A stretch of DNA of 64,000 nucleotides, taken from the NCBI GenBank assembly GCA_024239075.1, contig JANBVI010000020.1, forward strand, positions 124,001 through 188,000, read 5' to 3'. Position 1 is the stretch's first letter; every line of letters begins with the position of its first letter. Made by a program: the position numbers and the translations under genes. The stretch comes from Fischerella sp. CENA71 (GTDB lineage Bacteria; Cyanobacteriota; Cyanobacteriia; Cyanobacteriales; Nostocaceae). Shown here piece after piece: positions 6,259 through 44,588 of the stretch. Below the pieces are notes generated by a model that saw only the letters and a program-made list of their open reading frames with translations, had not been told where the DNA came from and did not search any database.

Positions 6259-7557
6259 TTAAAGTGGCAGTTGAATTGTAAAACAAGTATAGTTAGACCC
6301 ACTTTCAGCTTTAATTGTTCCACCTATATACTTGGTCATCTTTTGTACCAATGCTAAACCTAATCCTGTACCTCCCTGTTTCAAAGGATCGTTACTGGGG
6401 ATACGGTAAAATTTGTCAAATATGCGTGGCAATTCAGATGCAGGGATTTCTACACCATAATTAGTAACCTGAATTTGCATGAAACTAGCTTTTGACTGAG
6501 CAGCAATAATAATTTCTGCATCTGTTGGACTAAATTTACAGGCGTTTGTCAGCAGTTCGATCAAAATACGCTCCAAGCTAAACTGATCGCAGATGAAGCT
6601 CGGAAGATTGTCAGCTATCCTGATGTGCAAATTATGTGAATAACTGTTGCGATCGCGTACTTGAAATAGCCTCACTACCCGTTCTAACCATTCTTGAACT
6701 TGAATAGTTTCTAATACTAGCGGTTTGGCACCTATATCCAAACGTTGTAAATCTAAAAACTTATTAATTAGATTTATCTCTCTGTCACATTCATTGTTTA
6801 AAATTTGGAAATAGCGAGCCACTTTTGAACGTTCTAGATGATGTTTTGACATTTCTGATAACAAGTTTTGCTCTTGGTTGAGCGCAATTTCCAACATCTG
6901 TATGGCCATTTTCATGTTGGTAAGGGGCGTCCTAAGTTCGTGAGAAATAGTGTTGAGAAATTCATCTTTGAGGCGATTGAGGGTCTCTAATTCCTCCAAT
7001 TGCGCTTGTGTGTCTTTTTGACTTTGTTTGAGAGGAACTTCTGCTAATTTTCGCTCGGTTATGTCTTCACAAACCATTAGAATCAATGGATTTTCCTTAC
7101 CTGATTGCAATACCCGCACTCCTACTTTTACCCATACCATTTGACTGGCAGGGCAGTTTAAGCACAACTCGATATTGACAGTTGCATTTTCTTGTGGCTC
7201 TCCTAATAAGGTCATCAATACATCAGATAACCTTTGCTGTTCTGATTGCTCAAACAAATTTAAAACAGGCTGTTGTACTAGTTCTTGTGGAGAATAACCA
7301 AGACTAGTAGCACCAAAATAATTGACAGATAATATTACTCCATCTTGATTGAGAATAAAATAGACACAAGGTATATTTTCATACAACTTGCGATACCATA
7401 ACAGTTCTTCTTGGGTACGACGCCAGGATTCTGCTGTACAAATCTCTACTTCTGAGGCTTTTTCTGGTACAAGTTCCAACCATGCAGATGTTGCAGAAAC
7501 TGTATTATGTTGTTGTTGGCAAGTGTGATGCCTTCTAAATGGCTGATTAAGGCTCAT
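6259..7557 (-). CDS. PAS-domain sensor histidine kinase
   Basis: 432 residues from the ATG at 7557; a TTG at 7578 would add seven residues and neither start has a clear ribosome site. A PAS sensory domain (about 50-165, with an EDITERK end) is followed by a short coiled linker, HisKA with the phosphorylatable His in HELRTPLTNMK, and a HATPase_c domain with NACKFSP (N box), DKFYRI and GGTGLGLALV (G box). No membrane segment is seen, so it should sense a cytoplasmic signal. No response regulator is adjacent, so this is an orphan kinase. It follows the phosphatase gene on the same strand. Confidence 0.92.
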   Translation of the reverse strand: MSLNQPFRRHHTCQQQHNTVSATSAWLELVPEKASEVEICTAESWRRTQEELLWYRKLYENIPCVYFILNQDGVILSVNYFGATSLGYSPQELVQQPVLNLFEQSEQQRLSDVLMTLLGEPQENATVNIELCLNCPASQMVWVKVGVRVLQSGKENPLILMVCEDITERKLAEVPLKQSQKDTQAQLEELETLNRLKDEFLNTISHELRTPLTNMKMAIQMLEIALNQEQNLLSEMSKHHLERSKVARYFQILNNECDREINLINKFLDLQRLDIGAKPLVLETIQVQEWLERVVRLFQVRDRNSYSHNLHIRIADNLPSFICDQFSLERILIELLTNACKFSPTDAEIIIAAQSKASFMQIQVTNYGVEIPASELPRIFDKFYRIPSNDPLKQGGTGLGLALVQKMTKYIGGTIKAESGSNYTCFTIQLPL

Positions 7558-15582: not shown

Positions 15583-16683
15583 TCAAGTAAGATTATCTTT
15601 GTTTCTGAACTGCTCTGCGTATTGCTGCAACTTTTGAAAATAATCAAGGTTCACAATCTCTGCAACATCACTTTCTTTTTTTGCTAAGTCAATTTGAATT
15701 TTTAAATCTAATACTTCTTGTTTGAGCTTTTGTTCGCGTTTGTAAAACTCACGAGACATGTGAATAGCTGCTGCGGCTTGATTTGCTAAAGCACTCAAAA
15801 ATTCTAAATCTTCGTCAGTATAACTGATCAGAGGAGATAAATTATCGACGTATAACACCCCGAACACTTGCGTATAAGTTTTGAGAGGTACGCACATGCA
15901 ATTTTGAATTGCTTCTCGGACAATTGAAAAAGAATCATTAAATCGCTGATCGCGTTTAGCATCCTGAGTGATAATTGCATCCCCGCTTTCATAAGCGAGA
16001 TTGACGATTTTGCTACTGTAAAGCTGTTGATAGCCAGCAAGATCCTCTCTTAACTTGCTGGCTTTTAGTTCGAGTTGTTGAGACTGTTCATCAACCAAGA
16101 GAATCGCCGCGTGATCGATTCTCATAATTTGAAATATTAGATCGAGAATCTTGTGGAGAAGTTGATCGGGTTCGTCAGGTGAACAGAGTTGTTTGCTGAC
16201 TTCTAAGAGAATTTTGAGTTTGTTGACTGTTTGTTGCTCGCGATCGCGAGACTTTAATTTGATAATAGAATCTTCGCTTGGCTTCTGGGCGACCAAATCC
16301 TGAAGTTGCGACTCATTTTGGGGAAGAGGAATTTGTTTAAAATGATCGCTTAATAATTCTTGATTATCTCTGATTGGTTGCGCCTGGGATTTTTTCAGAG
16401 AATGAACGAATTTTAGCTGAAGTTGACCACAAGCGATCGCATCGCCGTCACGAAGTTGAGATACAGTAACTTTGACTTGATTGACAAAGGTATGATTGCT
16501 ACTGCCACAATCTTTAATCGTCACTCCATTGGGGGCGACGTGAATCTGCGCGTGGTAACGAGATACGGTTTCTTCCAGCAAAACAATAGTATTATCGATT
16601 TTACGACCAAGGGTGTTAAATCCTTGTTTCAACTCATAAACTCTCTCATTTGGTGTTTCAGGGGCGTAGATTAAATACGGCAC
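15583..16683 (-). CDS. FHA-GAF domain protein
   Basis: 366 residues from a GTG start. The N-terminal FHA domain (about 20-100; LGRKIDNTIVL, SRYHAQIHV, SSNHTFVN) binds phosphothreonine peptides. A GAF domain (about 170-320; IMRIDHAAILLVDEQ, NCMCVPLKTYTQVFGVLYVDN) binds a small molecule or chromophore-like ligand. A C-terminal coiled coil (about 320-360) suggests dimerisation. There is no output domain, so it is probably an adaptor downstream of a Ser/Thr kinase. GAF cysteines for a bilin are not obvious in the usual position. Confidence 0.85.
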   Translation of the reverse strand: MPYLIYAPETPNERVYELKQGFNTLGRKIDNTIVLLEETVSRYHAQIHVAPNGVTIKDCGSSNHTFVNQVKVTVSQLRDGDAIACGQLQLKFVHSLKKSQAQPIRDNQELLSDHFKQIPLPQNESQLQDLVAQKPSEDSIIKLKSRDREQQTVNKLKILLEVSKQLCSPDEPDQLLHKILDLIFQIMRIDHAAILLVDEQSQQLELKASKLREDLAGYQQLYSSKIVNLAYESGDAIITQDAKRDQRFNDSFSIVREAIQNCMCVPLKTYTQVFGVLYVDNLSPLISYTDEDLEFLSALANQAAAAIHMSREFYKREQKLKQEVLDLKIQIDLAKKESDVAEIVNLDYFQKLQQYAEQFRNKDNLT

Positions 16684-17148
16684 TTTTACTGTTCGGATGT
16701 TCTGTAGCTGATTACTTTAAATGGTAACTATCTTTTTAGTCAGTCGCACACAGGTACTTTATTTAAGACTTACAAGACCTAAATTAAACCAAGAACGAAC
16801 CTAACGCCATAACCCACTCACTCACCCCCAAAACTCGCGACGGAATGTCGCATCCGGTGCTGGTGGTTGTGAAAGATGCTCAATCGCATAGATGAAGTAT
16901 AAGCATTACCTAAATTGTTGAAGAAAATAGCTTATCTAGAGCGAGATCGCCTATAGTTTTCAAACATCCTCTCATATGGTTGTTCTCAGTGCAATTTAAA
17001 AGACATATTTATTTTCCAAATGTTCATAAATCAAAAATACATATCTGGGCGATTATTTAATTTATTTTTTAAATAATAAATCCAATATACTCCGTTATTT
17101 GTTAATATAAAAGCAGCAAAAAATTTAAATACTTTTTGGACAAATAAC
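16684..17148. other. Intergenic region left of the peptide locus
   Basis: No gene is seen in 465 bp. The right half is very A+T-rich and presumably holds the promoter for the GG-leader gene at 17149, which has no clear ribosome site. Confidence 0.4.
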
Positions 17149-17343
17149 ATGATTATTGCTGATTTAAAATTTGACGAATTAGTAGAACTTCCAAACACCA
17201 TAATTGGTGGTGCTTCATCGTTTTATAGTTACACTAATTCTAATTCGGAGGATACTTCTGGATTAAAAAAAGCTAAGGAAAAGCTAATGGAATTATCACC
17301 TTCAGGCAAAACTCAGGGAGGCTCTTTCATGGAAGATATTTAA
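17149..17343 (+). CDS. Double-glycine leader peptide precursor
   Basis: 64 residues. The leader MIIADLKFDELVELPNTIIGG has the acidic, amphipathic form of bacteriocin-type leaders, ending in GG where a C39 peptidase would cut. The mature part (43 residues) starts ASSFYSYTNSNS and is Ser/Asn-rich, then charged and helical (LKKAKEKLMELSPSG), with no cysteine, so no disulphide or lanthionine is expected. It lies on the opposite strand from the exporter genes and is followed by a terminator at 17511. Mature activity is unknown. Confidence 0.7.
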   Translation: MIIADLKFDELVELPNTIIGGASSFYSYTNSNSEDTSGLKKAKEKLMELSPSGKTQGGSFMEDI

Positions 17344-17388
17344 TAGCTAGTTTTGCAAGATTAATTAAGACAAGAGTGAGCATAAGTT

Positions 17389-17466
17389 ATGATAGAGATG
17401 GTTTATCTAATTCTACAAGTGTCACTTTTAATGTTGGCATTAGCCATAAAAAATCTTATAAAGTAA
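17389..17466 (+). CDS. Possible 25-residue membrane peptide
   Basis: A short ORF begins 45 nt after the GG-leader gene and before the terminator. It encodes mostly one hydrophobic helix (VYLILQVSLLMLALAI) with a basic end NLIK. Size and place would fit a tiny partner or immunity-like peptide, but the ribosome site is weak and such ORFs arise by chance in A+T-rich DNA. Confidence 0.3.
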   Translation: MIEMVYLILQVSLLMLALAIKNLIK

Positions 17467-17510
17467 CTTGATTGTTAGTAATTGGAGTTTAAACCATCTA
17501 ATATTTTTAC

Positions 17511-17560
17511 ATATCCCTTGTTTTTCAAAAACTTTTCTAAAACAAGGGATATATTTTTAA
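17511..17560 (+). terminator. Intrinsic terminator of the GG-leader gene
   Basis: Perfect 14-bp stem ATATCCCTTGTTTT / AAAACAAGGGATAT (17511-17524 and 17539-17552), followed by ATTTTTAA. Confidence 0.85.
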
Positions 17561-17611
17561 TATTGACTAACATATTAACACCTTTAACGAAATATTTATG
17601 AGAATTAAATA

Positions 17612-17639
17612 TAGGCATAACAAAGATTTGCTATGCCTA
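17612..17639 (-). terminator. Hairpin after the minus-strand GG-leader gene
   Basis: TAGGCATA(a)CAAA / TTTG(c)TATGCCTA with a two-base loop, 57 nt beyond the stop at 17696. Possible end of the minus-strand transcript; no clear T tract. Confidence 0.45.
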
Positions 17640-17695
17640 CACTAGATTAACTATCTGACTACAAACAAATTGTTTCACCTTTAGGTACTAATTAA

Positions 17696-18007
17696 TTAAA
17701 TTACTGATATTGCTGATAGACTTCCAGCATAATTTACACCCTCTTTAGTACCTTTTGACGTACTAGTTATAACTTTAATCTTTTCAGTTTTCTTTGCTAA
17801 AATTTTATGCTTGATTCCGAACTTATCTGTTGTCTCCTTCTCAAAGGAATATTCTCCTGGATGCTTATCAAAATCAGCTAAATCATCCAGAAAAATATTT
17901 GATATGTCTTGAAAAAGATGAGTTGGGAATAAACCACCCTGGATTTGCAGATCATTAGAAAGCTCAATTTCAAAAAAACTGAGATTATCAATTTTTAATC
18001 CACTCAT
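17696..18007 (-). CDS. Larger GG-leader precursor-like protein
   Basis: 103 residues with a GAGGA ribosome site. The N-terminus SGLKIDNLSFFEIELSND ends in LQIQGG, a double-glycine cleavage site after residue 25. The remaining 78 residues start LFPTHLFQDI and contain acidic and lysine-rich stretches with a C-terminal Ala/Ser/Gly-rich end (NYAGSLSAISVI). It has two prolines after the cleavage site, unlike the array peptides. It follows the five-gene array on the same strand behind a hairpin, so it has probably its own transcript. It may be an exported effector of the same exporter. No known family recognised. Confidence 0.65.
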   Translation of the reverse strand: MSGLKIDNLSFFEIELSNDLQIQGGLFPTHLFQDISNIFLDDLADFDKHPGEYSFEKETTDKFGIKHKILAKKTEKIKVITSTSKGTKEGVNYAGSLSAISVI

Positions 18008-18111
18008 AATTACATCCTCATTTGCAATACAATTTAGTTTACTAACATATCACTCCACACAAAATCACTAGATTACTTGCACTATTATTAGCAAGAACAA
18101 AGACAATTATT

Positions 18112-18140
18112 CTCGTTACCAGATTGAAACTGGTAACGAG
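18112..18140 (-). terminator. Hairpin at the end of the precursor array
   Basis: Perfect 11-bp stem CTCGTTACCAG / CTGGTAACGAG with a 7-nt loop, about 165 nt past the last array gene; on the minus strand it is followed by the A+T-rich AATAATTGTC. Confidence 0.6.
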
Positions 18141-18303
18141 GTTTGAATGGTTCGCATCCTATGTTCAACGAGGAAGACTAAGGGAAAATCGTATTTTACC
18201 AAAGCCCTCCGTTACAACAGCTAGCTTGCAATTGCAAACATCGCCAAATTTAACTTCTCAAGCATCCAATTAGTAACCAACCAAAAATTGATTAATTACA
18301 TTT

Positions 18304-18468
18304 TTAGTAATCTTTGTATTTGTCATCGTAGTACTTGCGATCGCCAGCTACAGCAACTGCAACCGCAACATTCTTGGCCTTACGATATCTATCGTACCCA
18401 CAACAACCACCACCAATAACTAGACTAGATTCAACAGATTCGATGTGATTAAGATCAGAAATAATCAT
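18304..18468 (-). CDS. Array precursor 1, GG-leader peptide
   Basis: 54 residues, too short for a long-ORF search. Leader MIISDLNHIESVESSLVIGG ends in GG at residue 20. The mature part begins GCCGYDRYRK, then the conserved AKNVAVAVAVAG, DRKYYDDKYKDY to the stop. AGGA lies upstream of the ATG. The tail is rich in Tyr, Lys and Asp; the VAVAVAVAG run is a hydrophobic small-residue strand. Two adjacent cysteines follow the cleavage site. No proline. It is on the same strand as the exporter genes, and is the most downstream copy. No lanthipeptide, cyanobactin or other RiPP maturase is nearby, so modification is uncertain. Confidence 0.8.
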   Translation of the reverse strand: MIISDLNHIESVESSLVIGGGCCGYDRYRKAKNVAVAVAVAGDRKYYDDKYKDY

Positions 18469-18705
18469 GGTTTATCCTGGGAATATTTTAATCGTTTTTT
18501 GCTGTGAGTTCAGAGGATGTCTGAAAATTTATGGACGAATATAATTTGCTCCTACACACTCTATGTTCAACTAGGAAGACTAAGGAAAAATCGCGATTTT
18601 CCCAAAGCCCTACGTTACAACAGCTAGCTTGCAATTGCAAACATCGCCAAATTTGACTTCTTAAACATCCTCTGAGTAACAAATCAAAATTGATTGATTA
18701 CATTT

Positions 18706-18870
18706 TTAGTAATCTTTGTATTTGTCATCGTAGTACTTGCGATCGCCAGCTACAGCAACTGCAACTGCAACATTCTTGGCCTTGAATCCATCGTAATTAC
18801 GAAGGCAACAACCACCAATAACTTGACTAGATTCAACAGATTCGATGTGATTAAGATCAGAAATAATCAT
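18706..18870 (-). CDS. Array precursor 2, GG-leader peptide
   Basis: 54 residues with leader ending SSQVIGG. The variable part reads CCLRNYDGFK, followed by AKNVAVAVAVAG and the same DRKYYDDKYKDY tail as copies 1 and 3. Leader nucleotide sequence is nearly identical to its neighbours, whereas the ten residues after GG differ. The HIP1 core GCGATCGC lies inside the GDR codons. The hydrophobic plus-strand ORF across this site is a shadow of it. Confidence 0.8.
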   Translation of the reverse strand: MIISDLNHIESVESSQVIGGCCLRNYDGFKAKNVAVAVAVAGDRKYYDDKYKDY

Positions 18871-19106
18871 GGTTTCTCCTGGGAATATTTTAATCGCTTT
18901 TTGCTGTGAGTTCAGAGGATGTCTGAAAAGTTATGAAAGAATATAATTTGCTCCTACACACCCTATGTTCAGCCAGGAAGACTAAGGGAAAATCGCGTCT
19001 TACCAAAGCCCTCCGTTACAACACCTAGCGTGCAATTGCAAACATCGCCAAATTTAACTTCTTAAACATCCTCTGAGTAACAAATCAAAATTGATTGGTT
19101 ACATTT

Positions 19107-19271
19107 TTAGTAATCTTTGTATTTGTCATCGTAGTACTTGCGATCGCCAGCTACAGCAACTGCAACCGCAACATTCTTGGCCTTGAATCCATCGTAATTA
19201 CGACGGCCACAACCACCAATAACTTGACTAGATTCAACAGATTCGATGTGATTAAGATCAGAAATAATCAT
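19107..19271 (-). CDS. Array precursor 3, GG-leader peptide
   Basis: 54 residues. Leader identical to copy 2; variable part CGRRNYDGFK (one cysteine, two arginines in place of CL), then AKNVAVAVAVAG and DRKYYDDKYKDY. Copies 2 and 3 differ by few residues, all directly after the cleavage site, which points to recent duplication with change focused on the new N-terminus of the mature peptide. Confidence 0.8.
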   Translation of the reverse strand: MIISDLNHIESVESSQVIGGCGRRNYDGFKAKNVAVAVAVAGDRKYYDDKYKDY

Positions 19272-19507
19272 GGTTTTTCCTGGGAATATTTTAATCCTTT
19301 TTTGCTGTGAGTTCAGAGGATGTCTGAAAAGTTATGAAAGAATATAATTTGCTCCTACACACCCTATGTTCAGCCAGGAAGACTAAGGGAAAATCGCGTT
19401 TTACCAAAGTCCTCCGTTACAACACCTAGCGGGCAATTGCAAACATCGCCAAGTTTGACTTCTTAAACATCCTCTTAGTAACCAATCAAAATTGATTGAT
19501 TACATTT

Positions 19508-19687
19508 TTAATAATCTTTGTATTTGTAATCGTAGTACTGATCATCGTAGTACTTGCGATCGCCAGCCACAGCAACTGCAACCGCAACATTCTTGGCCTT
19601 ACGGTAATCATAGTATTTACCGCCACAACCACCAATAACTTGACTAGATTCAATAGATTCGATGTGATTGAGATCAGAAATAATCAT
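19508..19687 (-). CDS. Array precursor 4, GG-leader peptide
   Basis: 59 residues. Leader has V12 changed to I, ending SSQVIGG. The variable part is CGGKYYDYRK. The tail is extended by five residues (DRKYYDDQYYDYKYKDY), a small in-frame duplication of a Tyr-Asp unit, making it the most Tyr-rich copy. The remainder matches the family. Confidence 0.8.
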   Translation of the reverse strand: MIISDLNHIESIESSQVIGGCGGKYYDYRKAKNVAVAVAVAGDRKYYDDQYYDYKYKDY

Positions 19688-19929
19688 GGTTTATCCTGGG
19701 AATATTTTAATCGTTTTTTGTTGTTATTTCAGAGGATGTTTTAAAAGTTGTGGACGCATACAATTTGCTCCTACACACCCTATGTTCAACCAAGAAGACT
19801 AAGGGAAAATCGCGATTTTCCCAAAGCCCTACCTTACGAAACCTAGCTTGCAATTGCAAATATCGCCAAGTTTGACTTTTCAGATATCCAGTTAGTAACC
19901 AATCAAAAATTAATTGATTACATTTTTTT

Positions 19930-20106
19930 CTAGTACTTGCGATCGCCAGCTACAGCAACAGAAACCGCAAGATTCTTGATCTTTTTATCACCATTACCAT
20001 TGTCATTGTCGTCGAATCTGTCGAAGTCGAACCAGCCATAACCGCCGCCGCCAACAACTTTATTAGATTCAACGGCTTCGATGTGATTCAAATCAGAGAT
20101 TAACAT
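19930..20106 (-). CDS. Array precursor 5, divergent GG-leader peptide
   Basis: 58 residues and the first gene of the array in transcription order. Leader MLISDLNHIEAVESNKVVGG. The variable part is long and different: GGYGWFDFDRF then DDNDNGNGDKK, Gly/Asp/Asn-rich with no cysteine. The conserved block survives as IKNLAVSVAVAGDRKY and stops early. It lies 312 bp downstream of the PpiC-like gene on the same strand. The Asp/Asn/Gly run might bind metal; this is a guess. Confidence 0.75.
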   Translation of the reverse strand: MLISDLNHIEAVESNKVVGGGGYGWFDFDRFDDNDNGNGDKKIKNLAVSVAVAGDRKY

Positions 20107-20418
20107 GGTTTCTCCTGGGAATTAATTAATCATTTTTTGCTGTTATTAAAGCGATAAAATTTATTTTTACCGCTTACATTTTTATATTATCTTACTTTTA
20201 ATAAAAAATCTTTTTTTGGACTATATTTAAAATAAAAATAATTAATTTAAAAGCTGTTTTCTATCTAATTTAAATAAAATTTTTATATGGAAAATAAGTA
20301 TAAACAAGAACAACAAAAATGGACGATTAAGCCAAAGCTTATCGTCTAAAAAATCTATATCACCTTTAAAAACTTATTTAAATTCAGTTTAGTTTATCTG
20401 ATCAATGATTGTTTAATA
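20107..20418 (-). other. Intergenic region before the array with a terminator
   Basis: 312 very A+T-rich bases. On the minus strand, a stem GACGAT(t)AAGC / GCTTATCGTC at 20322-20346 is followed by CATTTTTGTT, a good intrinsic terminator for the PpiC-like gene. The array therefore probably has its own promoter in the A+T-rich part (20107-20320). Confidence 0.65.
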
Positions 20419-21216
20419 TTAACTAGTAATCGAATAATCTTCTTTCCCCACTTCGTTTTGTGATTGCAAATTGATATCTGTGTCTAAATTGAGCACTATT
20501 TCCATACTTTCAATTTGTTTTTTTAACCAATCAGAAAACAAATCAAAAATTATTTGTTGGTATAACTCGTCATCTAATTGGGGTTGAATTATTTCTTCAA
20601 CCCAAATTAAATACACTCCTTTAGTAGTTGTTATTGGTTTCAAAACTTGTGGTGGTGTTGCGGCAAACACCGCAGCTGCAACTTCAGGGCGAAATTCTTG
20701 GCGGCGTCGAATTCCTTGATATCCACCAGCACGACGTAATTCTGGTACTTGGATATATTGGCGGGCGATTTCTGAAAAACTGATTTCACCTTCTTCTATT
20801 TCATAAAACAATTCCAAAGCTAAATCTCTATCCTCAAGGATGACTTCATAGGTAACAGCAGCTAGATACTCAAGTTGATTTTGGTAAAAGAACTTTTCGA
20901 CATGATCTGCAAATAAATAATCTGCCAACTTCTTAGAGAGAACTTGATGGTAGATTAATTCTTCAAACTCATCTAAAGAAAGATGATGTTTTTTGAGCCA
21001 TTCCCAAGTATCTTTTGCTTTGATGAGTTTCTTCTCTAAGCGCAGCTTGTCTCCTTCTTCTTGAAGTTCTGCTTTCTCGATGTGAATACCAGCTTCTTTA
21101 GCTGCTTCAGCAATGATTTTTTCAGACGCGATCGCCTCCACAACTATAGGAATTTGGCAAGAAAGTTTGATGTTACGAATAATCTCTGAAGAAGTCACAG
21201 TGAGATTTTTAGCCAT
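20419..21216 (-). CDS. PpiC/SurA-like peptidyl-prolyl isomerase of the peptide locus
   Basis: 265 residues with GGAGTGA upstream of the ATG. The N-terminal half is helical and SurA-like (about 1-120), and the C-terminal half resembles parvulin rotamase (about 125-235: FSEIARQYI, GGYQGIRRRQEF, AVFAATPP, LKPITTTKGVYLIWVEE). There is no signal peptide, so it should act in the cytoplasm before export, perhaps holding precursors in an exportable form or maturing another locus product. It lies 111 bp after the HlyD gene in the same direction and is followed by a terminator. A paralogue lies at 27179. Confidence 0.8.
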   Translation of the reverse strand: MAKNLTVTSSEIIRNIKLSCQIPIVVEAIASEKIIAEAAKEAGIHIEKAELQEEGDKLRLEKKLIKAKDTWEWLKKHHLSLDEFEELIYHQVLSKKLADYLFADHVEKFFYQNQLEYLAAVTYEVILEDRDLALELFYEIEEGEISFSEIARQYIQVPELRRAGGYQGIRRRQEFRPEVAAAVFAATPPQVLKPITTTKGVYLIWVEEIIQPQLDDELYQQIIFDLFSDWLKKQIESMEIVLNLDTDINLQSQNEVGKEDYSITS

Positions 21217-21238: not shown

Positions 21239-21331
21239 GATTCGTCATTTGTCCTTTGTCCTTTGTCATTTGTAATGAGTACTAACTATTAATCAATGAT
21301 CAATGACTAATAACTAATGACTAATGACTAA
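21239..21331. repeat. Heptanucleotide tandem repeats
   Basis: Runs of TTTGTCC / TTTGTCA and ACTAATG / ACTAATA heptamers fill the PpiC-HlyD spacer. These short tandem repeats are typical of heterocystous cyanobacteria. Confidence 0.7.
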
Positions 21332-22860
21332 AGCTTCAAACCATCTTTTTGCAGCCGCTGGAATGGATCTAAGACAAAGTCAATCACCCGTCGTTGACGA
21401 ATAACGACTTCTGCGGTTGCTGTCTGACCAGGATTCAATAGAATACGTTGGTTGCCATTTTGCAGATACTGCTGATCCAAAGCGATGTCTAAATCAAAGC
21501 TTTCTTGTTTCCCTTGGGGTGTTTGAATAACTTTTGAGTCGGGAGATACCCAAGTAACTTTGCCCTGAGCAATGCCATACTGTTGAAAAGGATAAGCATC
21601 TAACTTGATTTTGACTGGCATTCCTACCTTCAAAAAGCCACTTTGTTGAATAGGCATCTGGGCTTTCAGGATGAAGGGCGTATTTTGGGGTGCAATTTGG
21701 GCTACTCTTTGACCAAGTTGTACTACAGCTCCTGGCTTTGTGACTGGAAACTCAAAAACTACACCATTAACAGGCGATCGCACTATTCGTTGCTGTAACT
21801 GAAGCTTTATAGATGCCATTTGGCTTTTGATTTGAGCAATTTGAGATTCTAAGCCAGTGATTTGTGTTTGGAAGTCTTTGATTTGTTGCCGATTTTTGAG
21901 AATGGCCAATTTACCAGCTTGTAACAAGCTTTGATAATTGCTTTGCTCCGCTTGGAATTGCAGTTTTGCTTTCGCAATATCAGACTCTAACTGATTGACT
22001 GTTGCTTGATAACGACTTTGTTCTTCTGCTAAACGCAATTGAGCTTGTTTAACATCAGATTGAGCCTTTTCATAGATTTGCTTGCTTTGCTGTTGCTCTT
22101 TTTTGAGTTGGTCAATTTGCGTTACGGATACCGCGCCATCCTTTAACAATTGACTATAGCGATGAACTATTCTGGAATCTAGCTTCAAACGCTCTTCAGC
22201 CGATTTCAGATCATTACGACTCGTAAAAATTTGTTGCTGTGCTTGGTTGAGTAATGCCTGTTTTTCTAACTTTTGTAAATTGTAGATACTCTGTTTGGCA
22301 TCCAGTTCTTGTTTTGCCTGGTTGACTTGGGATATTTTTTCTAATGCTTGAGATTTGTTTTGTTGCTCCTGAACACCTAGCGTCAACTGGAGTTGGTTTG
22401 TGAGTAGATAATATTGCGATCGCTGATTGAGCAATCCAGTCAGTTTTTCTTGAGCTTGCTGGAGTTCGGTTTGCAAGATATCAGATTCAAGTTCCAGCAG
22501 AACTTGTCCTGCTTTAACAGTGTCACCTTCCTTGACTTGAACAGCCTTCACACTCCCGCTGGACAATGCATCTAGTTTCTGTGTTGAACCTTTAGGTTCT
22601 ATACGTCCTCTGGCATTACCAGTCTCATCTACCTTGGTAAGCACTGACCAAGGTATGGCAAGAACTGTAAAACCTATAAGTGTATACAGAACACTACGAG
22701 TCCAAACTCTCGGTAAGGCATCTAGTAACTCTTCAGTGGCATAATGCCAATCTTTGGCCTGTTCTTTAGGCTTAATAAATTCCTGAGTTTGTGGATAGCT
22801 TTGCTTCTCATCTGGTTTGTTAACCAGTGCAGATGAAGAATTCGTATGTGGAGATGGCAT
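21328..22860 (-). CDS. HlyD-family membrane fusion protein
   Basis: 510 residues. A single membrane helix lies at about 57-77 (SVLYTLIGFTVLAIPWSVL), followed by lipoyl/barrel-sandwich halves (SGSVKAVQVKEGDTVKAGQVLLELE early; IVRSPVNGVVFEFPVTKPGAVVQ late), separated by a long coiled coil (about 130-355), and a beta-barrel end. It links an inner-membrane ABC exporter to an outer-membrane channel such as TolC. It starts 117 bp downstream of the exporter gene, the standard order for a type I secretion pair. No TolC gene is in the window. Confidence 0.92.
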   Translation of the reverse strand: MPSPHTNSSSALVNKPDEKQSYPQTQEFIKPKEQAKDWHYATEELLDALPRVWTRSVLYTLIGFTVLAIPWSVLTKVDETGNARGRIEPKGSTQKLDALSSGSVKAVQVKEGDTVKAGQVLLELESDILQTELQQAQEKLTGLLNQRSQYYLLTNQLQLTLGVQEQQNKSQALEKISQVNQAKQELDAKQSIYNLQKLEKQALLNQAQQQIFTSRNDLKSAEERLKLDSRIVHRYSQLLKDGAVSVTQIDQLKKEQQQSKQIYEKAQSDVKQAQLRLAEEQSRYQATVNQLESDIAKAKLQFQAEQSNYQSLLQAGKLAILKNRQQIKDFQTQITGLESQIAQIKSQMASIKLQLQQRIVRSPVNGVVFEFPVTKPGAVVQLGQRVAQIAPQNTPFILKAQMPIQQSGFLKVGMPVKIKLDAYPFQQYGIAQGKVTWVSPDSKVIQTPQGKQESFDLDIALDQQYLQNGNQRILLNPGQTATAEVVIRQRRVIDFVLDPFQRLQKDGLKL

Positions 22861-22977: not shown

Positions 22978-25900
22978 TTAAGATAACTGTTGTTGATTCA
23001 GGTAGTAGTAGTGACCTTTTTTAGCGATGAGTTCGTCGTGAGTACCGCTTTCTACCAATAAGCCATGATCTAAAACCAGAATTAAGTCAGCGTTGCGGAC
23101 AGTAGAAAGACGATGAGCAATGATTACACTTGTGCGTTCTTTAAGAATGGTTTTGAGATTGTTTTGAATAATGCGTTCTGATTCAGCATCTAGATGACTG
23201 GTGGCTTCATCTAAAAGCAACAAGCGGGGATTTCCTAGTAAAGCACGGGCGATCGCTAGGCGTTGGCGTTGTCCACCGGAGAGCATTCCACCACCTTCAC
23301 CAATTTGGGTTTCATAACCCAATGGCAGCTGCTGGATAAATTCATCTGCTCCCGCCATGTGTGCTGCTTGGGTAATTTCTTCCAAAGAAGCATCTGGATG
23401 AGCTATGGCAATGTTTTCGCGAATAGTACCACCAAAAAGGAAGGAATCTTGGTCTACTACACCAACTTGAGAACGAAGCGATCGCAGGGAAATATTATTG
23501 ACATCTTGACCATCGATCAATACTTTGCCATCACTCGGTGGATATAAACCCAAAATCAATTTGCTGAGTGTGGTTTTCCCAGAACCACTGCGTCCAACCA
23601 CAGCTACCATTTGTTCTGGTTGGATTTCAAAGTTGATATTTTCTAAGACATTGGTATCATTTTCTGGATGGTAGCGAAAGGTAACATTCTGAAAACGAAT
23701 ATGACCACGTAGACTATCCAAAGGTTTACGGGGTTTGTGCTCTAAGTCTTCTTCTGGTTCTGCTTCTAAAACATCATTGATACGTTCGGTGGAAATGACA
23801 ATTTCCTGTAATTGATTCCATAGCAATGACAGCCTTTGAAAAGGACTGATTACATTACCCACCAGCATATTGAAAGCGACCAACTGCCCAATCGTGAGTT
23901 CTTGATTAATAACCAACGATGCTCCATACCAGAGTAAGGAGGTATTCACGAAGGTTTCAATTACACCAGTAATCACAGTCAGACGGTTGCTGATTATCTG
24001 AGCATTAAAAGCTTTTTTAATCAATTTATTCAGTAGTTCTTCCCAACGCCAGCGCACTGTCTGTTCTATGGACAATGAGCGAACAGTGCGAATTCCTGTC
24101 AAGGACTCGATGAGATAGCTGTTTTCTTCTGCCCCAGCATTAAAAATCTCTCTAGAGATGCGGCGTAGAATACTAGTGCTAGCCAGCGCCAAGATAAAAA
24201 ATGGCGGTACAGTGAACAATACAAACAACGCCATGCGCCAGCTATACCAGAACATCATGGCCAGATAGATCACCAATGTCAGCAAATCCAGCAAGATAGA
24301 CAGTGTCTGTCCAGTCAGGAAGCGCTGAATCTTTTCGTTTTCTTGAACACGGGAGACGATGTCCCCAACATAACGAGACTCAAAATACGAGAGAGGTAAA
24401 CGGAAGGTATGTTTGATAAACCCTACCAATAAGGCAACGCTAACACGGTTGGCAGTATGATCCAGCAAGTATTGCCGTACTCCGTTCATGATCACCCGGA
24501 ACAAACCGAAAATGATCATCCCCAAAGCAATAGCATTTAAGGTGGTAAAACTGCGTTGTACTAACACCCGGTCTAATAGTAACTGGGTAAAAACTGGTGT
24601 TACCAATCCAAATAACTGAATCAGGACTGAGGCAAAAAAGATTTCTAGTAGTACCTTATGGTGAGGTTTGACTAAGTCAAAAAACTTCCAAAGGCTAGTA
24701 GTTTTGTTTTCGGCATCTTTAAGTAGGGCTGTGGGTTGCAGCAACAATGCATAACCAGTCCAACCCTTTTCAAATTCCTTGGGGGTGAGAGTGCGTTGAC
24801 CGATCGCAGGATCACCCACAATCACATGCTTTTTCGTTATTTCATAGACGACGATAAAGTGCTTACCTTCCCAGTGAACAATTGCAGGTAAAGGTTGTTC
24901 TGCCAATTTATCAAAACTGGCTTTTACAGGCCGGGTAACAAAACCAAGGCTTTCGGCAGTTGTAGCAATAGCCCGTAGAGATGCCCCACTACGGCTAACG
25001 TTGGTCATATCCCGTAGACGATTAACACTAAAGTGCTTACCCCAATAGCTACCAATCATTACCAAGCAAGCAGCACCACAGTCAGAAGCACTTTGTTGAG
25101 CATAAAAGGGATAGTGACGGGTAAGGCGTCCCCACCAATGCCCCATTTGCACTTTTGGACTGGGAAAATAAGGGCGTAGTTTTGTTTGCTCTGGTTTTAG
25201 TTGTTTTAGCTGTTGTGGCTGCTTTGTAGATGTTTCTGGTATGGGAAAAGGAATAATGTTTTTGTGACGTTCGGGTTTGTTTACTGGTGGTGTTTCCTTC
25301 TCATCAATGGCAATTGGTATTGAATCAAAACCATCAATATTCCCTAGTTCTGGCCAGTATTGTAATGCTGTTTGCCAATGAGAACGTTTGAGACTGTAGA
25401 TGATTGTGGGCGCAACTGTCTGCCAGTGAGTTGGCGTCTTTGGAACAGAAATATCTCCCTGATTCAGCTTTTGACCATTAGCATGAAGCAGTTCTCCTCG
25501 GTAAAGTAGCCATAGTTGCTGATCTTGGCATAGCTCCATGGGTAGAGAACCTATTTCCAGACTGTGCCGTTCACATAGAGATAAAACTTTGAACATTTCT
25601 GGCACAGAGATCGGAAACTGTGATGAGTTTTGGCTATAACCAAGCAACAGATCCCAAATTTCTGCTTTTTGATAAAGGCGATCGCGGATTTCGGCAGAGT
25701 TATGCATCAATCTCTGCATTACCTCACCTTTGAGATAGCAAAGTTTTAAGCGATGGGAAGCTCTGGCTGCATATGGCTGGAATTCTATTGTGGGAAACAA
25801 AGTGATTTCACCAAATGTCCCTCCTTTTGTCAGAGTCGCAATCAAGTTATCACAGCTATCTAGCAATCTAACTTTGCCTGCAATGACAATATAAATTCCT

Positions 25901-26061
25901 GCCTGAGTTTCTGTGGCTTGCCAAAACTGCTGTGTCGGTGGTGGTTCTATAATTTCCACCGCTGCCAAACAGTCCTCTAATTCCTTTTTTGAGAGCGTCT
26001 CACCGAAAGTCACAGTGAGTTGTTGAGCCACTAGCTCTTGCTCAGAAAACACAGATAACAC
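22978..26061 (-). CDS. Peptidase-containing ABC exporter (C39) with N-terminal cNMP-binding-like domain
   Basis: 1027 residues from the GTG at 26061, chosen because GGAGG lies seven bases before it; an upstream GTG at 26088 would place that ribosome site inside the gene. A cNMP-binding-like fold (about 40-125; GIYIVIAGKVRLLD, GGTFGEITLF) and a second degenerate copy come first. Then the C39 peptidase with C328 in DCGAAC, H401 in GKHFIVV and D417 in GDPAIG; six membrane helices (about 475-760); and an ATPase with Walker A GRSGSGKTT (about 820), LSGGQRQR, LLLLDEAT and IIAHRLS. It should cut leaders after GG and export the mature peptides. All active-site residues are present. Confidence 0.95.
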   Translation of the reverse strand: MLSVFSEQELVAQQLTVTFGETLSKKELEDCLAAVEIIEPPPTQQFWQATETQAGIYIVIAGKVRLLDSCDNLIATLTKGGTFGEITLFPTIEFQPYAARASHRLKLCYLKGEVMQRLMHNSAEIRDRLYQKAEIWDLLLGYSQNSSQFPISVPEMFKVLSLCERHSLEIGSLPMELCQDQQLWLLYRGELLHANGQKLNQGDISVPKTPTHWQTVAPTIIYSLKRSHWQTALQYWPELGNIDGFDSIPIAIDEKETPPVNKPERHKNIIPFPIPETSTKQPQQLKQLKPEQTKLRPYFPSPKVQMGHWWGRLTRHYPFYAQQSASDCGAACLVMIGSYWGKHFSVNRLRDMTNVSRSGASLRAIATTAESLGFVTRPVKASFDKLAEQPLPAIVHWEGKHFIVVYEITKKHVIVGDPAIGQRTLTPKEFEKGWTGYALLLQPTALLKDAENKTTSLWKFFDLVKPHHKVLLEIFFASVLIQLFGLVTPVFTQLLLDRVLVQRSFTTLNAIALGMIIFGLFRVIMNGVRQYLLDHTANRVSVALLVGFIKHTFRLPLSYFESRYVGDIVSRVQENEKIQRFLTGQTLSILLDLLTLVIYLAMMFWYSWRMALFVLFTVPPFFILALASTSILRRISREIFNAGAEENSYLIESLTGIRTVRSLSIEQTVRWRWEELLNKLIKKAFNAQIISNRLTVITGVIETFVNTSLLWYGASLVINQELTIGQLVAFNMLVGNVISPFQRLSLLWNQLQEIVISTERINDVLEAEPEEDLEHKPRKPLDSLRGHIRFQNVTFRYHPENDTNVLENINFEIQPEQMVAVVGRSGSGKTTLSKLILGLYPPSDGKVLIDGQDVNNISLRSLRSQVGVVDQDSFLFGGTIRENIAIAHPDASLEEITQAAHMAGADEFIQQLPLGYETQIGEGGGMLSGGQRQRLAIARALLGNPRLLLLDEATSHLDAESERIIQNNLKTILKERTSVIIAHRLSTVRNADLILVLDHGLLVESGTHDELIAKKGHYYYLNQQQLS

Positions 26062-27178
26062 CCGCTCACCTCCAGGAATCAAATACACGAATCCGCTGTA
26101 GCTGTTTTTAAAATTATTTTGGTCAAATTTTCATAGCGACACAAAAGAGTTAGCTGAGATTTTGCACTAAGCCCTGGCGTGCAACTTCTAGTTGCTGAAT
26201 GCAAGATGTCAGCTTACTTTATACGATAATGCAAAGCTTGAATTATATTTGAATCAAGCCGAAATTATGAGCTTTCATTTGGATTTCTCTGGTTATTGAT
26301 CATTAGCCATTTGTAAATCAATATTCTAGAAATGACAAATGATTTATGACAGCAACAAGCAATTTTGACAAATATGCTTCTGCATTGAGTTTTACACAAT
26401 TATCATCAGAGTCTATCTCTGATTTAGGAATAATGGGTATCTAAGCGCTATCGCTATGTAGAAAGATAATTACCCTTTATTTTGCTCAATAAATGGATTA
26501 TTAAAATAATAATCATGAGACCATCGCAATCCTTATTTTTGTGTTTTACTACTTTTCTAGGAATCTATCAAAAGACTGAATTACCTCCTAAATAATTATT
26601 TTTAGTAAAATCGAACACACAAAGTTTCTAAAAAATTAATATTGCCCAAAATCATGCATTTTTCAGGTCTGGGATGAATGTTAAAGATAAATATGTGAGG
26701 TATAAACATTCTCTTATTTTCCCTTTTACCTTTTCTATTTATCCCTTAGCAGATAAGCATTAGCTCATACACTACAGTTATTCTGTATATATCTGAAAAC
26801 TTTTTCAATATATTTTGGTTAAATTTACAAGATTTGCTTACTGTTGCATGATTACTTTATGAACTCTTCAAGAATAATTGTTGTGTATGAATATCAATTT
26901 TATTGTTTGAAAAATAGGCAATAAAAGATGTTATGGTTTAAAAATGTATTGTTTTACTAAGTAAACTTTGTTTAATTAGCCATTTTTAATATTTGCTGGC
27001 TTTTTTGTCATTTTATTCATCATCAAGAGAGATATTTATTATATTTTACGTCTTTTTATGTGATGAGAAGCATTGAGCTTCAGTGTTTATATGGCTATTA
27101 ATTTTAATTAATGTATATAAAAAAAATAACAGTTGTAAAATTGCATTTTTGTATCTAATTTGTATCTTTATTGTATAT
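26062..27178. other. Long A+T-rich gap between exporter and second PpiC-like gene
   Basis: About 1.1 kb without a convincing gene on either strand. No GG-leader ORF was found when ATG starts on both strands were read. A 32-codon ORF at 26346-26444 (+) has no GG motif and is not supported. The exporter promoter probably lies within 26062-26300. Confidence 0.5.
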
Positions 27179-27206
27179 CTAATGTATCTGAAGTGTATCT
27201 ATATCA
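27143..27206. repeat. Degenerate GATACA repeats across the stop of the second PpiC-like gene
   Basis: On the minus strand, AGATACA-type units recur about five times (spaced 11-17 bases), starting inside the last codons and continuing past the stop. They could be a slippage tract or a binding array. Confidence 0.45.
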
Positions 27207-27943
27207 ATTCCATCCGAATTTAACAAATACTGCGCTTCATTAATCAGCCATTGTTGAAACATATTATTGAGGATTTCTTCATGCCTTTGAGGTGTTAATT
27301 CTGCTATAATAAACTCTTCAACGATAAGAAGATGATAGCCTTGTTCACTTTTTAATGGGCCAATTAATTGTTTAGGAGGAGTACTAAAAACAAGCTCACC
27401 TATATTTGCTTGGATAGCCCAACGATAAATTTGTCCTTCATAGCCACATTTATGTCTACGGTTATCATCAATGTCATAAATGTGTGCCGCATCATAGAAA
27501 CTAATTTCGCCTTCTTCAATTTGGTAATAGATTTCTTGAGCAAGCTTTTTGGATGTCACTATCATTTGATAAAGAATGACTTGCTCAAATTCGTGTCGAT
27601 TTTGGTTAAAAAATTTTTTTACTTCTTTAGCAAAGAGTGTCTGTGCTACTTTTTGCGCTAGCAGTTGATTGCGAATTCCCATCTCCCAATCATAGGGACT
27701 AACAAATTGCTCTGCTAACCATGTCAAGGTATCAACAGCTTTTTCTAAACGCTGTTCACGACGTTGACGGTCTGCTTCTATTTCAATTTCTTCTGTAGTA
27801 ACAATTATGCCCCTTTCTTTGGCTGCATTGTCTATAATTCTTTGATATAAGATTTTTTGACATATTTGCCTCAAAGTCATTTCACTTTTGAGGTAGTTGA
27901 TGATCTCCCCAGAAGTTATATTTATTTGAGAAATATCTTTCAT
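27179..27943 (-). CDS. Second PpiC/SurA-like protein of the peptide locus
   Basis: 254 residues, clearly a paralogue of the protein at 20419: helical N-terminal half, QLLAQKVAQTLFAKEVKKFF corresponding to VLSKKLADYLFADHVEKFF, YYQIEEGEISFYDAAHIY corresponding to FYEIEEGEISFSEIARQY, then GYEGQIYRW and LIGPLKSEQGYHLLIVEEF. No signal peptide. The conserved YxIEEGEISF motif between the two is striking. It lies at the head of the locus, before the 1.1 kb gap. Parvulin active-site residues are only partly recognisable, so it may be a chaperone rather than an isomerase. Confidence 0.75.
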   Translation of the reverse strand: MKDISQINITSGEIINYLKSEMTLRQICQKILYQRIIDNAAKERGIIVTTEEIEIEADRQRREQRLEKAVDTLTWLAEQFVSPYDWEMGIRNQLLAQKVAQTLFAKEVKKFFNQNRHEFEQVILYQMIVTSKKLAQEIYYQIEEGEISFYDAAHIYDIDDNRRHKCGYEGQIYRWAIQANIGELVFSTPPKQLIGPLKSEQGYHLLIVEEFIIAELTPQRHEEILNNMFQQWLINEAQYLLNSDGIDIDTLQIH

Positions 27944-43112: not shown

Positions 43113-44588
43113 CTACGAAAATAAGCGTCTAGTAAATTCCAATGCGGCTTCTGACTCTGGTATTTCTCTGGCTAAGAGTTCTACAAATTGGTAAGGTGTC
43201 GTTTGGGGATTTTCAGCTAAGATATCTTCTACAATTAGGCTGGCGATGGGACCAATATAGAAGGCTAAAGCATCTTGACAACGCCGTATAAATGCAGCGT
43301 TGAGTGAAGTTATTTGTTGCTGATTTTGATTCGTTTGTGAGTTTTGATAATTCGGTTGATTTTGATAAGTTTGTCGATTTGGAAAACTTGGTTGATTTTG
43401 ATTCGTTTGTGAGTTTTGATAATTCGGTTGATTTTGATAAGTTTGTCGATTTGGAGAACTTGGTTGATTTTGATTCGTTTGTGAATTTTGATAATTCGGT
43501 TGATTTTGATAAGTTTGTCGATTTGGGAAATTTGGTTGATTTTGATTTGTTTGTGGATGGCGAGAAGTTTGTTGATTTGATGGTTTACTCAGCACCGTTT
43601 CATCTAAATCTGAATTAGTAGACTGAGATTGAGATATTGTTAGGGTTGTTTGAGCATCCGGAGCAAGTATGGTGGGAGGAACATCAAACATTGTTGATGA
43701 TGATGCTGTTTGGGGTTTTCCTAAAAGCTCAAGATCCCTTAAAACTTCTTGAGATGTTTGATATCTATACCTGGGTGTATCTGACAGCATTTTATCCAGG
43801 ATTTGAGCAAATTCATCGCTGACATAAGTGTAAAAACGCCACTTCCACTCCAAGCTGTACTGATCCATGAGCAAGGATGGGTCTTTACCTGTAAGTAGTA
43901 CAATTGCTGTGACTCCCAAAGCATAGAGATCACTGCTAGGAGAACACAACCCCAAGCTGATTTGTTCTCGGGGGGCGTATCCTACTTTCCCGACCAAAGA
44001 CATTTTACCTACAAAGGTCGCTTGGTTGGTATTAGTAACTTCATTGAGATCAGCTATTTGTTTTCCTACTCCAAAGTCAATTAAGACGGGCAAAATATTA
44101 CCTTCAGGTAACATGATATTGTCAGGTGAAATATCCCGATGAATAATATGATGCTGATGTATGTACTCTAAAATAGGCAATAGATTTTTTAACCACTGAA
44201 TGACTTCTTCTTCAGTAAAAGTTTGTCCTTGAAGTTGGCGATCGCGTAATAAGGCTGAGTAAGTTTTACCATTCACATATTCTTGTACTAAAAAAAGGCG
44301 ACCATCTCCTTCAAAACAAGCCAAAAAACGAGGTATTTGTGGATGTTCTAACTGGTGAAGAATTTTTGCTTCTCTTTTAAACAAATTGCGACATTTTTCT
44401 AATCCTCCTCCCCCTGTCCCAATCGGCGCAAATTCCTTAAGGACACAAGCTTCATTAAAGCGACGAGTATCAAACGCTAAGTAGGTTCGCCCCAGACCCC
44501 CCTGTCCTAGCAGTTGTTGGATGATGTAACGATTATCAATTAATGTTCCTGAAGGTATTTCTGGTTTGACTAAGGGGATCTGAGACAT
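43113..44588 (-). CDS. Ser/Thr kinase with Asn/Gln-rich repeats and a C-terminal helical domain
   Basis: 491 residues. Kinase domain (about 18-285): LGQGGLGRTY, K51, HRDISPDN at 150-157, DFG at 171-173, YAPREQ. In the catalytic loop the usual Lys (HRDxK) is Ser154; Asp152 and Asn157 are kept. Next comes an N/Q/P-rich linker with three 24-residue repeats (NRQTYQNQPNYQNSQTNQNQ plus four). The C-terminus (about 425-491; CQDALAFYIGPIASLIVEDIL) is a compact helical domain found at the end of other cyanobacterial kinases. Cytoplasmic. It is convergent with the DUF3365 pair. Confidence 0.9.
   Translation of the reverse strand: MSQIPLVKPEIPSGTLIDNRYIIQQLLGQGGLGRTYLAFDTRRFNEACVLKEFAPIGTGGGGLEKCRNLFKREAKILHQLEHPQIPRFLACFEGDGRLFLVQEYVNGKTYSALLRDRQLQGQTFTEEEVIQWLKNLLPILEYIHQHHIIHRDISPDNIMLPEGNILPVLIDFGVGKQIADLNEVTNTNQATFVGKMSLVGKVGYAPREQISLGLCSPSSDLYALGVTAIVLLTGKDPSLLMDQYSLEWKWRFYTYVSDEFAQILDKMLSDTPRYRYQTSQEVLRDLELLGKPQTASSSTMFDVPPTILAPDAQTTLTISQSQSTNSDLDETVLSKPSNQQTSRHPQTNQNQPNFPNRQTYQNQPNYQNSQTNQNQPSSPNRQTYQNQPNYQNSQTNQNQPSFPNRQTYQNQPNYQNSQTNQNQQQITSLNAAFIRRCQDALAFYIGPIASLIVEDILAENPQTTPYQFVELLAREIPESEAALEFTRRLFS
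43321..43536. repeat. Three 72-bp in-frame tandem repeats
   Basis: Units start at 43321, 43393 and 43465, and a partial fourth at 43537. They encode the Asn/Gln-rich kinase linker and differ at few bases, so the array is young. The plus-strand Asp/Phe-rich frame here is a shadow. Confidence 0.9.

Follow-up and report, generated by a model that had tools for sequence, protein, structure and literature searches.

The window analyzed here, a 64,000-nucleotide stretch (G000:C20:124001-188000) of the 7.47-Mb genome of the filamentous cyanobacterium Fischerella sp. CENA71, contains a tandem array of five small genes, W1-W5, each encoding a putative peptide precursor with a Gly-Gly (GG) leader. The differences at the start of the predicted mature peptides look old and are partly common to a sister species, so the array may hold a limited, persistent repertoire of peptide types and not a toxin that changes rapidly. 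The reading that we prefer, with confidence a little short of even, is that a small set of cleaved peptides is co-exported, that recombination homogenizes parts of the repeat unit while older N-terminal types persist, and that the peptides have a surface or matrix role.

The five genes follow one another on the minus strand at 18304-20106 and, in the order of transcription, encode 58, 59, 54, 54 and 54 amino acids (aa):

19930-20106, minus strand: W1, first precursor gene, 58 aa; Cys-free variable part of 23 residues, GGYGWFDFDRFDDNDNGNGDKKI; short end GDRKY
19508-19687, minus strand: W2, precursor, 59 aa; variable segment CGGKYYDYRKA, one Cys; positional counterpart M2 in F. muscicola SAG 1427-1
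19107-19271, minus strand: W3, precursor, 54 aa; variable segment CGRRNYDGFKA
18706-18870, minus strand: W4, precursor, 54 aa; variable segment CCLRNYDGFKA
18304-18468, minus strand: W5, last precursor gene, 54 aa; variable segment GCCGYDRYRKA, two Cys
18158-19927, minus strand: 401-bp tandem unit of gene and spacer; within the genome, the full-length spacer is confined to the array

Tandem Repeats Finder gives a period of 401 for 18158-19927 (4.4 copies, 91% matches, score 2701), and this tandem repeat is beyond chance. Two short partial matches to the spacer occur elsewhere in the genome, one upstream of W1 and one beside an orphan gene on contig C64. As the original prediction had stated, five GG-leader genes are present in tandem, and the predicted mature peptides are 34-39 aa long (0-2 Cys, 2-10 Tyr); those of W2-W5 have a calculated charge of +1.7 to +2.7 and a grand average of hydropathy (GRAVY) of -0.67 to -1.19. 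In the precursors, a constant leader ending in GG is followed by a variable segment and then by a VAVAVAVAGDR tail. The near-constant leader and tail described earlier are found in W2-W5 but not in W1, the leader of which is 78-80% identical to the other four; the spacers, which had been called almost identical, are similar, with just 86-95% identity among the four complete ones.

The Gly-Asp-Arg (GDR) that is invariant in W1-W5 is coded across the octamer GCGATCGC, which we take to be HIP1; three related arrays (M, U and V, introduced below) have the same residues without the octamer. Leaders nearly identical to that of the array are also found in orphan genes, one near 337993 on contig C64 (L042) and others at L050-L053 and L059, and the cores of these peptides are rich in Lys/Asp/Tyr/Cys or Gly/Tyr/Lys. 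The evolutionary counts given below are confined to array genes, the orphan peptides being set aside.

Like arrays were compared in Fischerella sp. PCC 9431 (G175; genes designated A), F. muscicola SAG 1427-1 (G173; M), Westiellopsis prolifica (G174), Pelatocladus maniniholoensis (G172; P), F. thermalis PCC 7521 (G071; T), F. muscicola PCC 7414 (G069; U) and one further genome (G070; V). Over the six pairs of W2-W5, DNA identity is 95-100% in the leader, 95-100% in the KNVAVAVAVAGDR segment (the core), 94-100% in the C-terminus, where W2 carries 15 extra bases, and 89-95% in the following spacer. The variable segment is 63-70% identical (55-73% by pairwise alignment), except for the pair W3-W4, at 94% by either procedure. 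The difference between copies is thus concentrated in the new N-terminus, in agreement with the original prediction.

Synonymous and nonsynonymous differences per site (pS and pN) were then counted by segment, the pooled counts being taken without the first genes (W1, A1, M1, T1, U1 and V1), the Pelatocladus genes and the gapped Westiellopsis array. The variable segment of W2-W5 has a pS of 0.470 (15.7/33.3 sites) and a pN of 0.201 (pN/pS 0.43), a pS that rests on few sites (33.3 synonymous over six dependent pairs) and is inflated by codons with multiple changes; in the leader and core, pS is 0.062 (9.0/145.0 sites) and pN 0.013. For the ten pairs of A2-A6, the corresponding values are 0.318 and 0.187 (pN/pS 0.59) in the variable segment and 0.033 and 0.011 in the leader and core. 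The exporter, HlyD and PpiC genes adjoining the array provide a clock: their pS from the source genome is 0.141-0.180 to F. muscicola SAG 1427-1, 0.170-0.213 to PCC 9431 and 0.308-0.392 to F. thermalis PCC 7521. Set against this clock, the variable segments look older than the species splits and the leader and core younger, the order of ages being taken from the comparison and not their values. Judged by sequence, the contrast between segments arises partly from homogenization of the leader and core within the genome.

These counts bear on the proposal of focused diversification, of which one part stands: the N-terminus differs most, but synonymous change is raised there too, and the C-terminus is also raised. 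The comparison of synonymous and nonsynonymous change by segment, which had been suggested as a check, is likewise divided, since pS is high in the variable segment, whereas W3-W4 differ in that segment by two nonsynonymous and no synonymous changes (their leaders being unchanged and their cores differing by a single synonymous change), and A2-A4 by seven and one. For the gene pair W2-W5, the variable segment shows nine nonsynonymous and three synonymous changes. W3 and W4 are recent duplicates. Rapid diversification of the N-terminus, which the original prediction suggested, is not supported, given the pooled pN/pS values and the variable segments of W5 and M5, which are identical in protein.

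The best case for persistence comes from W2 and W5 with their positional counterparts M2 and M5. In the variable segment of this quartet, eight sites group by ortholog, none within the genome and none crosswise; in all other segments, the numbers are two, 13 and two (Fisher p 9.2e-5 for 8:0 versus 2:13). The identical peptides of W5 and M5 are encoded by segments that agree at 31/33 nucleotides (two synonymous, no nonsynonymous changes), and the spacers of these genes are 87-88% identical. When the pairing is swapped to W2-M5 and W5-M2 as a control, variable-segment pS rises from 0.259 to 0.507 and the number of gap codons from one to seven. Pooled over the orthologs W2-M2 and W5-M5, variable-segment pN/pS is 0.18, under the 0.73 of their leader and core. 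By position, W compared with T, U and V gives 3:0, 3:1 and 3:1 (orthologous:within-genome) in the variable segment and 0:31, 1:31 and 1:38 in the flanks. Among T, U and V themselves, flank sites are mostly orthologous (13:5, 14:12 and 11:8), and homogenization is therefore apparently weaker there. Mean distances among the W, M and A copies (17 pairs within and 38 between genomes, gaps ignored) are 0.065 and 0.167 upstream, 0.021 and 0.056 in the leader and core, 0.102 and 0.183 in the C-terminus, and 0.177 and 0.193 in the variable segment.

All six arrays of the same layout (W, M, A, T, U and V) have a single Cys before the Val-Ala stretch in their second gene and two to four in their last; the first gene has none in four arrays and one in two. 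Counterparts of W1 are present in five relatives (M1, A1, T1, U1 and V1). In the three first-gene quartets, which include W1/M1 and W1/A1, leader and upstream sites group by ortholog (for example, 6:0 in the leader and 44:0 upstream), and the 5′ half of the first gene therefore appears not to be homogenized. Persistence of types by position is, from these patterns, firm for one species pair only, the source genome and F. muscicola SAG 1427-1, for which the order of segment ages can be read from the DNA as directly as the array itself and its linkage to the exporter.

Several side observations concern the relatives. Two Pelatocladus precursor genes (L040, 6889-7065 and 7231-7407) encode identical proteins and represent a very recent duplication. 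Because in-frame, KYDD-like short repeats are found in variable segments of Westiellopsis (L041, about 6697-6747) and F. muscicola PCC 7414 (L038, 7565-7768), replication slippage is suggested as a source of length change in this segment. The Westiellopsis array contains a run of N (L041, 6919-8238) and was excluded; draft genomes may misstate the copy numbers of such arrays.

The genes for export, and two further precursor families, lie close to the array:

22978-26088, minus strand: ATP-binding cassette (ABC) exporter with N-terminal cyclic nucleotide (cNMP)-binding, C39 peptidase, membrane and ATPase domains (four Pfam matches)
21328-22860, minus strand: HlyD-type periplasmic adaptor (TIGR01843, 230.3 bits, cut-off 208.65)
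20419-21216, minus strand: PpiC-type peptidyl-prolyl isomerase, the SurA/rotamase of Wang et al. (PF00639, 33.1 bits, cut-off 21.7)
17696-18007, minus strand: precursor of a second GG-leader family (103 aa), located downstream of the array; L037, L038, L039 and L041 also have a related gene following the array
17149-17343, plus strand: third GG-leader precursor family, 64 aa; relatives opposite to the array in L035-L039 and L041, none listed for L040

The exporter domains match PF00027 (E-value 8.6e-8; 32.5 bits, cut-off 27.5), PF03412 (1.3e-40; 138.7 bits, cut-off 22), PF00664 (1.7e-54) and PF00005 (1e-36); the PpiC-type protein also scores 59.1 bits against TIGR04500, under the cut-off of 180. 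The exporter, HlyD and PpiC genes stand immediately upstream of the array on the same strand, and this order is kept in all seven relatives compared (L035-L041). Among 25 named loci with the array leader, the flanks contain a C39 open reading frame (ORF) in 18, HlyD in 18 and PpiC in 18, some contigs being too short to judge; within the flanks compared, none of the three was found at the orphan loci L050-L053 and L059. The two additional GG-leader precursors are probably co-substrates of the same exporter.

Maturation of the array peptides would start with cleavage of each precursor after the GG by the neighboring C39 exporter. HlyD and an outer-membrane channel would then carry the peptide out of the cell, PpiC serving as a chaperone. 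The mature peptide would combine an N-terminal segment rich in Cys, Tyr, Lys, Asp and Gly with a run of alternating Val and Ala and a charged end rich in Tyr. Recombination between adjacent copies, either gene conversion or crossing-over that halts at the dissimilar segment, would limit differences within a genome in the leader, the Val-Ala core and the spacers of the later genes; it may halt at the dissimilar segment or be selected against there, alternatives that the sequence does not separate. In this way, a Cys-poor first gene, a one-Cys second gene and a multi-Cys last gene would be retained. Once exported, the peptides would most likely act jointly as extracellular surface or matrix material, the Val-Ala stretch serving self-association and the N-termini component-specific cross-linking or binding. 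Cleavage, export, recombination as the cause of the pattern and the matrix role are what we infer.

The matrix role is most likely by analogy with EbfG1-4 of Synechococcus elongatus PCC 7942 and from composition. Efficient secretion of EbfG1-4 needs the C39 exporter PteB, and these proteins are required for biofilm (PMC4997328); EbfG1-3 form amyloid (PMC9981879). As here, where the resemblance is one of sequence, several small co-encoded GG-motif proteins are combined with a C39 peptidase exporter, which makes EbfG1-4 the nearest function-tested case found; the likeness is one of shared traits and not of demonstrated homology. Toxin, signal and surface peptide, among which the original prediction did not choose, are undecidable by sequence, although a surface or matrix role is favored.

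A number of observations weigh against this reading. The C-terminus has a pS of 0.300 (6.0/20.0 sites; pN 0.000) in the six pairs of W2-W5 and of 0.571 (20.0/35.0; pN 0.096) in A2-A6, above that of the variable segment there. Because this value is raised in both arrays, the tail end appears not to be cleanly homogenized and does not follow the core; its divergence and the raw spacer identities weaken a clean mosaic picture. The upstream spacers of W2 and W5 agree at 177/200 positions and those of the orthologs at 178/199 and 175/200, and are thus no more alike within the genome, so that homogenization of these spacers is favored solely by the patterns of shared sites. With gaps ignored, the nearest neighbor is strictly of the same genome for 13/17 units upstream, 9/17 in the leader and core and 8/17 in the C-terminus; the rows for the variable segment were therefore not used. 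Variable segments comprise only 6-26 codons, and the pooled pairs are not independent. The variable-segment pS of the orthologs, 0.259 (3.5/13.5), is higher than the pS of the exporter genes. By strict position, PCC 9431 gives 1:1 with W, 1:2 with M and 1:1 with T in the variable segment, and M versus T only 2:1; the 4:2 for W2/W5 with A2/A4 rests on pairs chosen by similarity and is biased. Pelatocladus (P1-P4) differs in gene order and tail, lacking the GDR. The AlphaFold2 model has low confidence (mean pLDDT 55.2, pTM 0.16, no elements), and the amyloid hotspot motif of EbfG1-3 (Ala, hydrophobic, Asn, Ile, small) is, by inspection, absent from W1-W5. Selection would not be needed for the pattern if recombination simply stopped at dissimilar DNA.

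Outside the counts given above, the pattern of a variable N-terminus is not general to the leader family, because it is clear in one of seven other arrays. In that array, from Moorena (L056), the first 12 mature residues show clearly lower similarity (0.67) than the remainder (0.97); in Oscillatoria (L083), the values are 0.69 and 0.80.

Four other explanations were considered. Rather unlikely, in our view, is a bacteriocin-type multi-peptide weapon against related cyanobacteria in which each N-terminus would suit a different target. Clusters of this type are catalogued as bacteriocins (PMC3140520; PMC4558948), the predicted mature W2-W5 are cationic and each array encodes several distinct peptides; however, the label rests on genome mining in these sources, the mature peptides of W2-W5 are on the whole hydrophilic, the variable segment is conserved between W5 and M5, and no immunity-like gene was recognized among the 20 window proteins scanned (11226-32790), where small unscanned ORFs and unknown families leave room for one. 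Positive selection for ever new N-termini, as in a diversifying toxin or a surface epitope, draws on the excess of nonsynonymous changes in the variable segments of W3-W4, A2-A4 and the pair W2-W5. This explanation is distinctly doubtful, because the pooled pN/pS values are accompanied by a raised pS in the same segment and the ortholog variable segments have a lower pN/pS than their leader and core.

Independent expansion of one ancestral gene in each species, followed by convergence on one-Cys and multi-Cys N-termini, would account for the grouping of flank sites by genome and for the failure of PCC 9431 to share types under strict positional pairing. The agreement of W5 and M5, silent sites included, and the 8:0 quartet argue against it, and it is unlikely as a general account, though possible for more distant species. 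Still less probable is a cell-to-cell signal in filament development, as proposed for the exports of HetC. HetC of Nostoc PCC 7120 has the same layout of a C39 peptidase ABC exporter with an N-terminal cNMP domain and is needed for functional heterocysts (PMC10986499). In contrast to the array precursors, which adjoin their exporter, no GG-leader gene is reported near hetC in that source. Five parallel low-complexity copies rich in Tyr, Lys and Asp seem unlike one defined ligand, and no receptor was recognized beside the array, the nearest regulator-like gene encoding a GAF/FHA protein (15583-16683).

The array and exporter constitute, by gene content, a long-type cyanobacterial cluster of bacteriocin groups I/II (Wang et al., 2011; PMC3140520). 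These groups are described as having a long-type C39 ABC exporter with a CAP_ED/cNMP domain, HlyD, SurA/rotamase and densely arrayed GG precursors in one to sixteen copies, and all of these components adjoin one another here. The cluster is written as I/II because the two groups are equal if modification genes are disregarded (PMC3140520). Extra modification genes such as an M16 peptidase, which mark group II, were not found among the 20 proteins scanned. Also unlike the clusters of Wang et al., the five peptides give no match to NHLP or Nif11 (N11P) leader models at E<=1 in NCBIfam or Pfam, and they possess a constant tail besides the leader.

Prochlorosins (ProcA/ProcM) likewise have a constant leader and a variable mature part. 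The array differs from them in its constant C-terminal part and in that no LanM or other lanthionine synthetase was recognized among the 20 proteins, distant enzymes not having been searched for. The scan revealed no other peptide-modifying gene, and three small ORFs in 11226-32790 match no family above the cut-off. The other neighbors in this region are housekeeping or generic: a tRNA synthetase, an exonuclease family member, a glycosyltransferase, the GAF/FHA protein, a second PpiC, IF-2 and YlxR. The second PpiC-like gene (27179-27943, minus strand; PF00639, 36.7 bits) lies upstream of the exporter, with an upstream counterpart in L045-L049. Elsewhere in the window, in-frame 36/72-bp repeats rich in Asn, Gln, Tyr and Pro (43321-43555) occur in a predicted serine/threonine kinase gene (43113-44588, minus strand).

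None of the five peptides exceeds the cut-off of a Pfam or NCBIfam model, and four leader and tail strings were found in no paper searched, supplementary tables lying outside the search; the statement that no known family has this tail is thus upheld. The best family match, a dihydroorotase model (13.9 bits, cut-off 482), is a chance match below threshold. Ten relatives from other cyanobacteria likewise gave nothing above a family cut-off, and tblastn gave no match in a plasmid collection. The leader itself is widespread by sequence search, being detected in at least 71 of 388 genomes of the order (profile, E<=0.001) and in 29 of 218 genomes of the family (single-sequence query, E<=0.01). Among the loci compared, the Val-Ala-GDR tail is limited to the source genome, G069, G070, G071, G173, G174 and G175; in G172, a related Val-Ala stretch occurs but GDR is missing.

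Each stop codon of the array is followed by a predicted stem-loop:

19894-19922, minus strand: stem-loop 3′ of the W1 stop, 10-bp stem
19477-19504, minus strand: stem-loop 3′ of the W2 stop, from stem alignment and fold
19076-19103, minus strand: stem-loop 3′ of the W3 stop, from stem alignment and fold
18675-18702, minus strand: stem-loop 3′ of the W4 stop, from alignment; not in the minimum-energy fold of the 120-nucleotide stretch
18272-18300, minus strand: stem-loop 3′ of the W5 stop, from stem alignment and fold

The stem is paired in 95.8% of 190 cells over 19 sequences, which five of 500 shuffles reach; its covariation score is 0.148 (3/500 shuffles), yet there is one double change only (90/500). 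The RNA-fold z values of the five spacers are -3.41, -1.56, -0.33, -1.45 and -2.09. One promoter per unit was rejected, sigma-70-type sites being fewer than in shuffles (four versus a mean of 10.8), as were intrinsic terminators (one found, 1.6 expected); Rfam gave no match at gathering thresholds in 17000-21000.

The kind of exported-peptide cluster is already known, and this array is a variant with an informative mosaic history and a putative function. Genome mining has labeled 290 GG-type precursors in 58 cyanobacterial genomes as bacteriocins, most with unknown products (PMC3140520), and 116 bacteriocin clusters of all groups are reported in 13 subsection V genomes (PMC4558948). The array makes a choice testable between a conserved repertoire, as in a joint structural or signaling role, and the open-ended diversification of a weapon. 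On a quite unlikely extension of the preferred reading, recombination would rewrite the leader, core and spacers but leave untouched a stretch of about 11 codons (in relatives, 6-26) that confers specificity. A fixed repertoire would thereby be kept through speciation as one co-assembling extracellular material, with the Cys-poor acidic, one-Cys and multi-Cys types each having a distinct cross-linking role. Gene conversion limits the divergence of adjacent tandem genes in TLR1/TLR6 (PMC2077338), an analogy of pattern only, as those are mammalian receptors. The array is a candidate bacterial case of homogenization within an array with a spared segment, and it cautions that old variation may pass for new where the flanks are alike.

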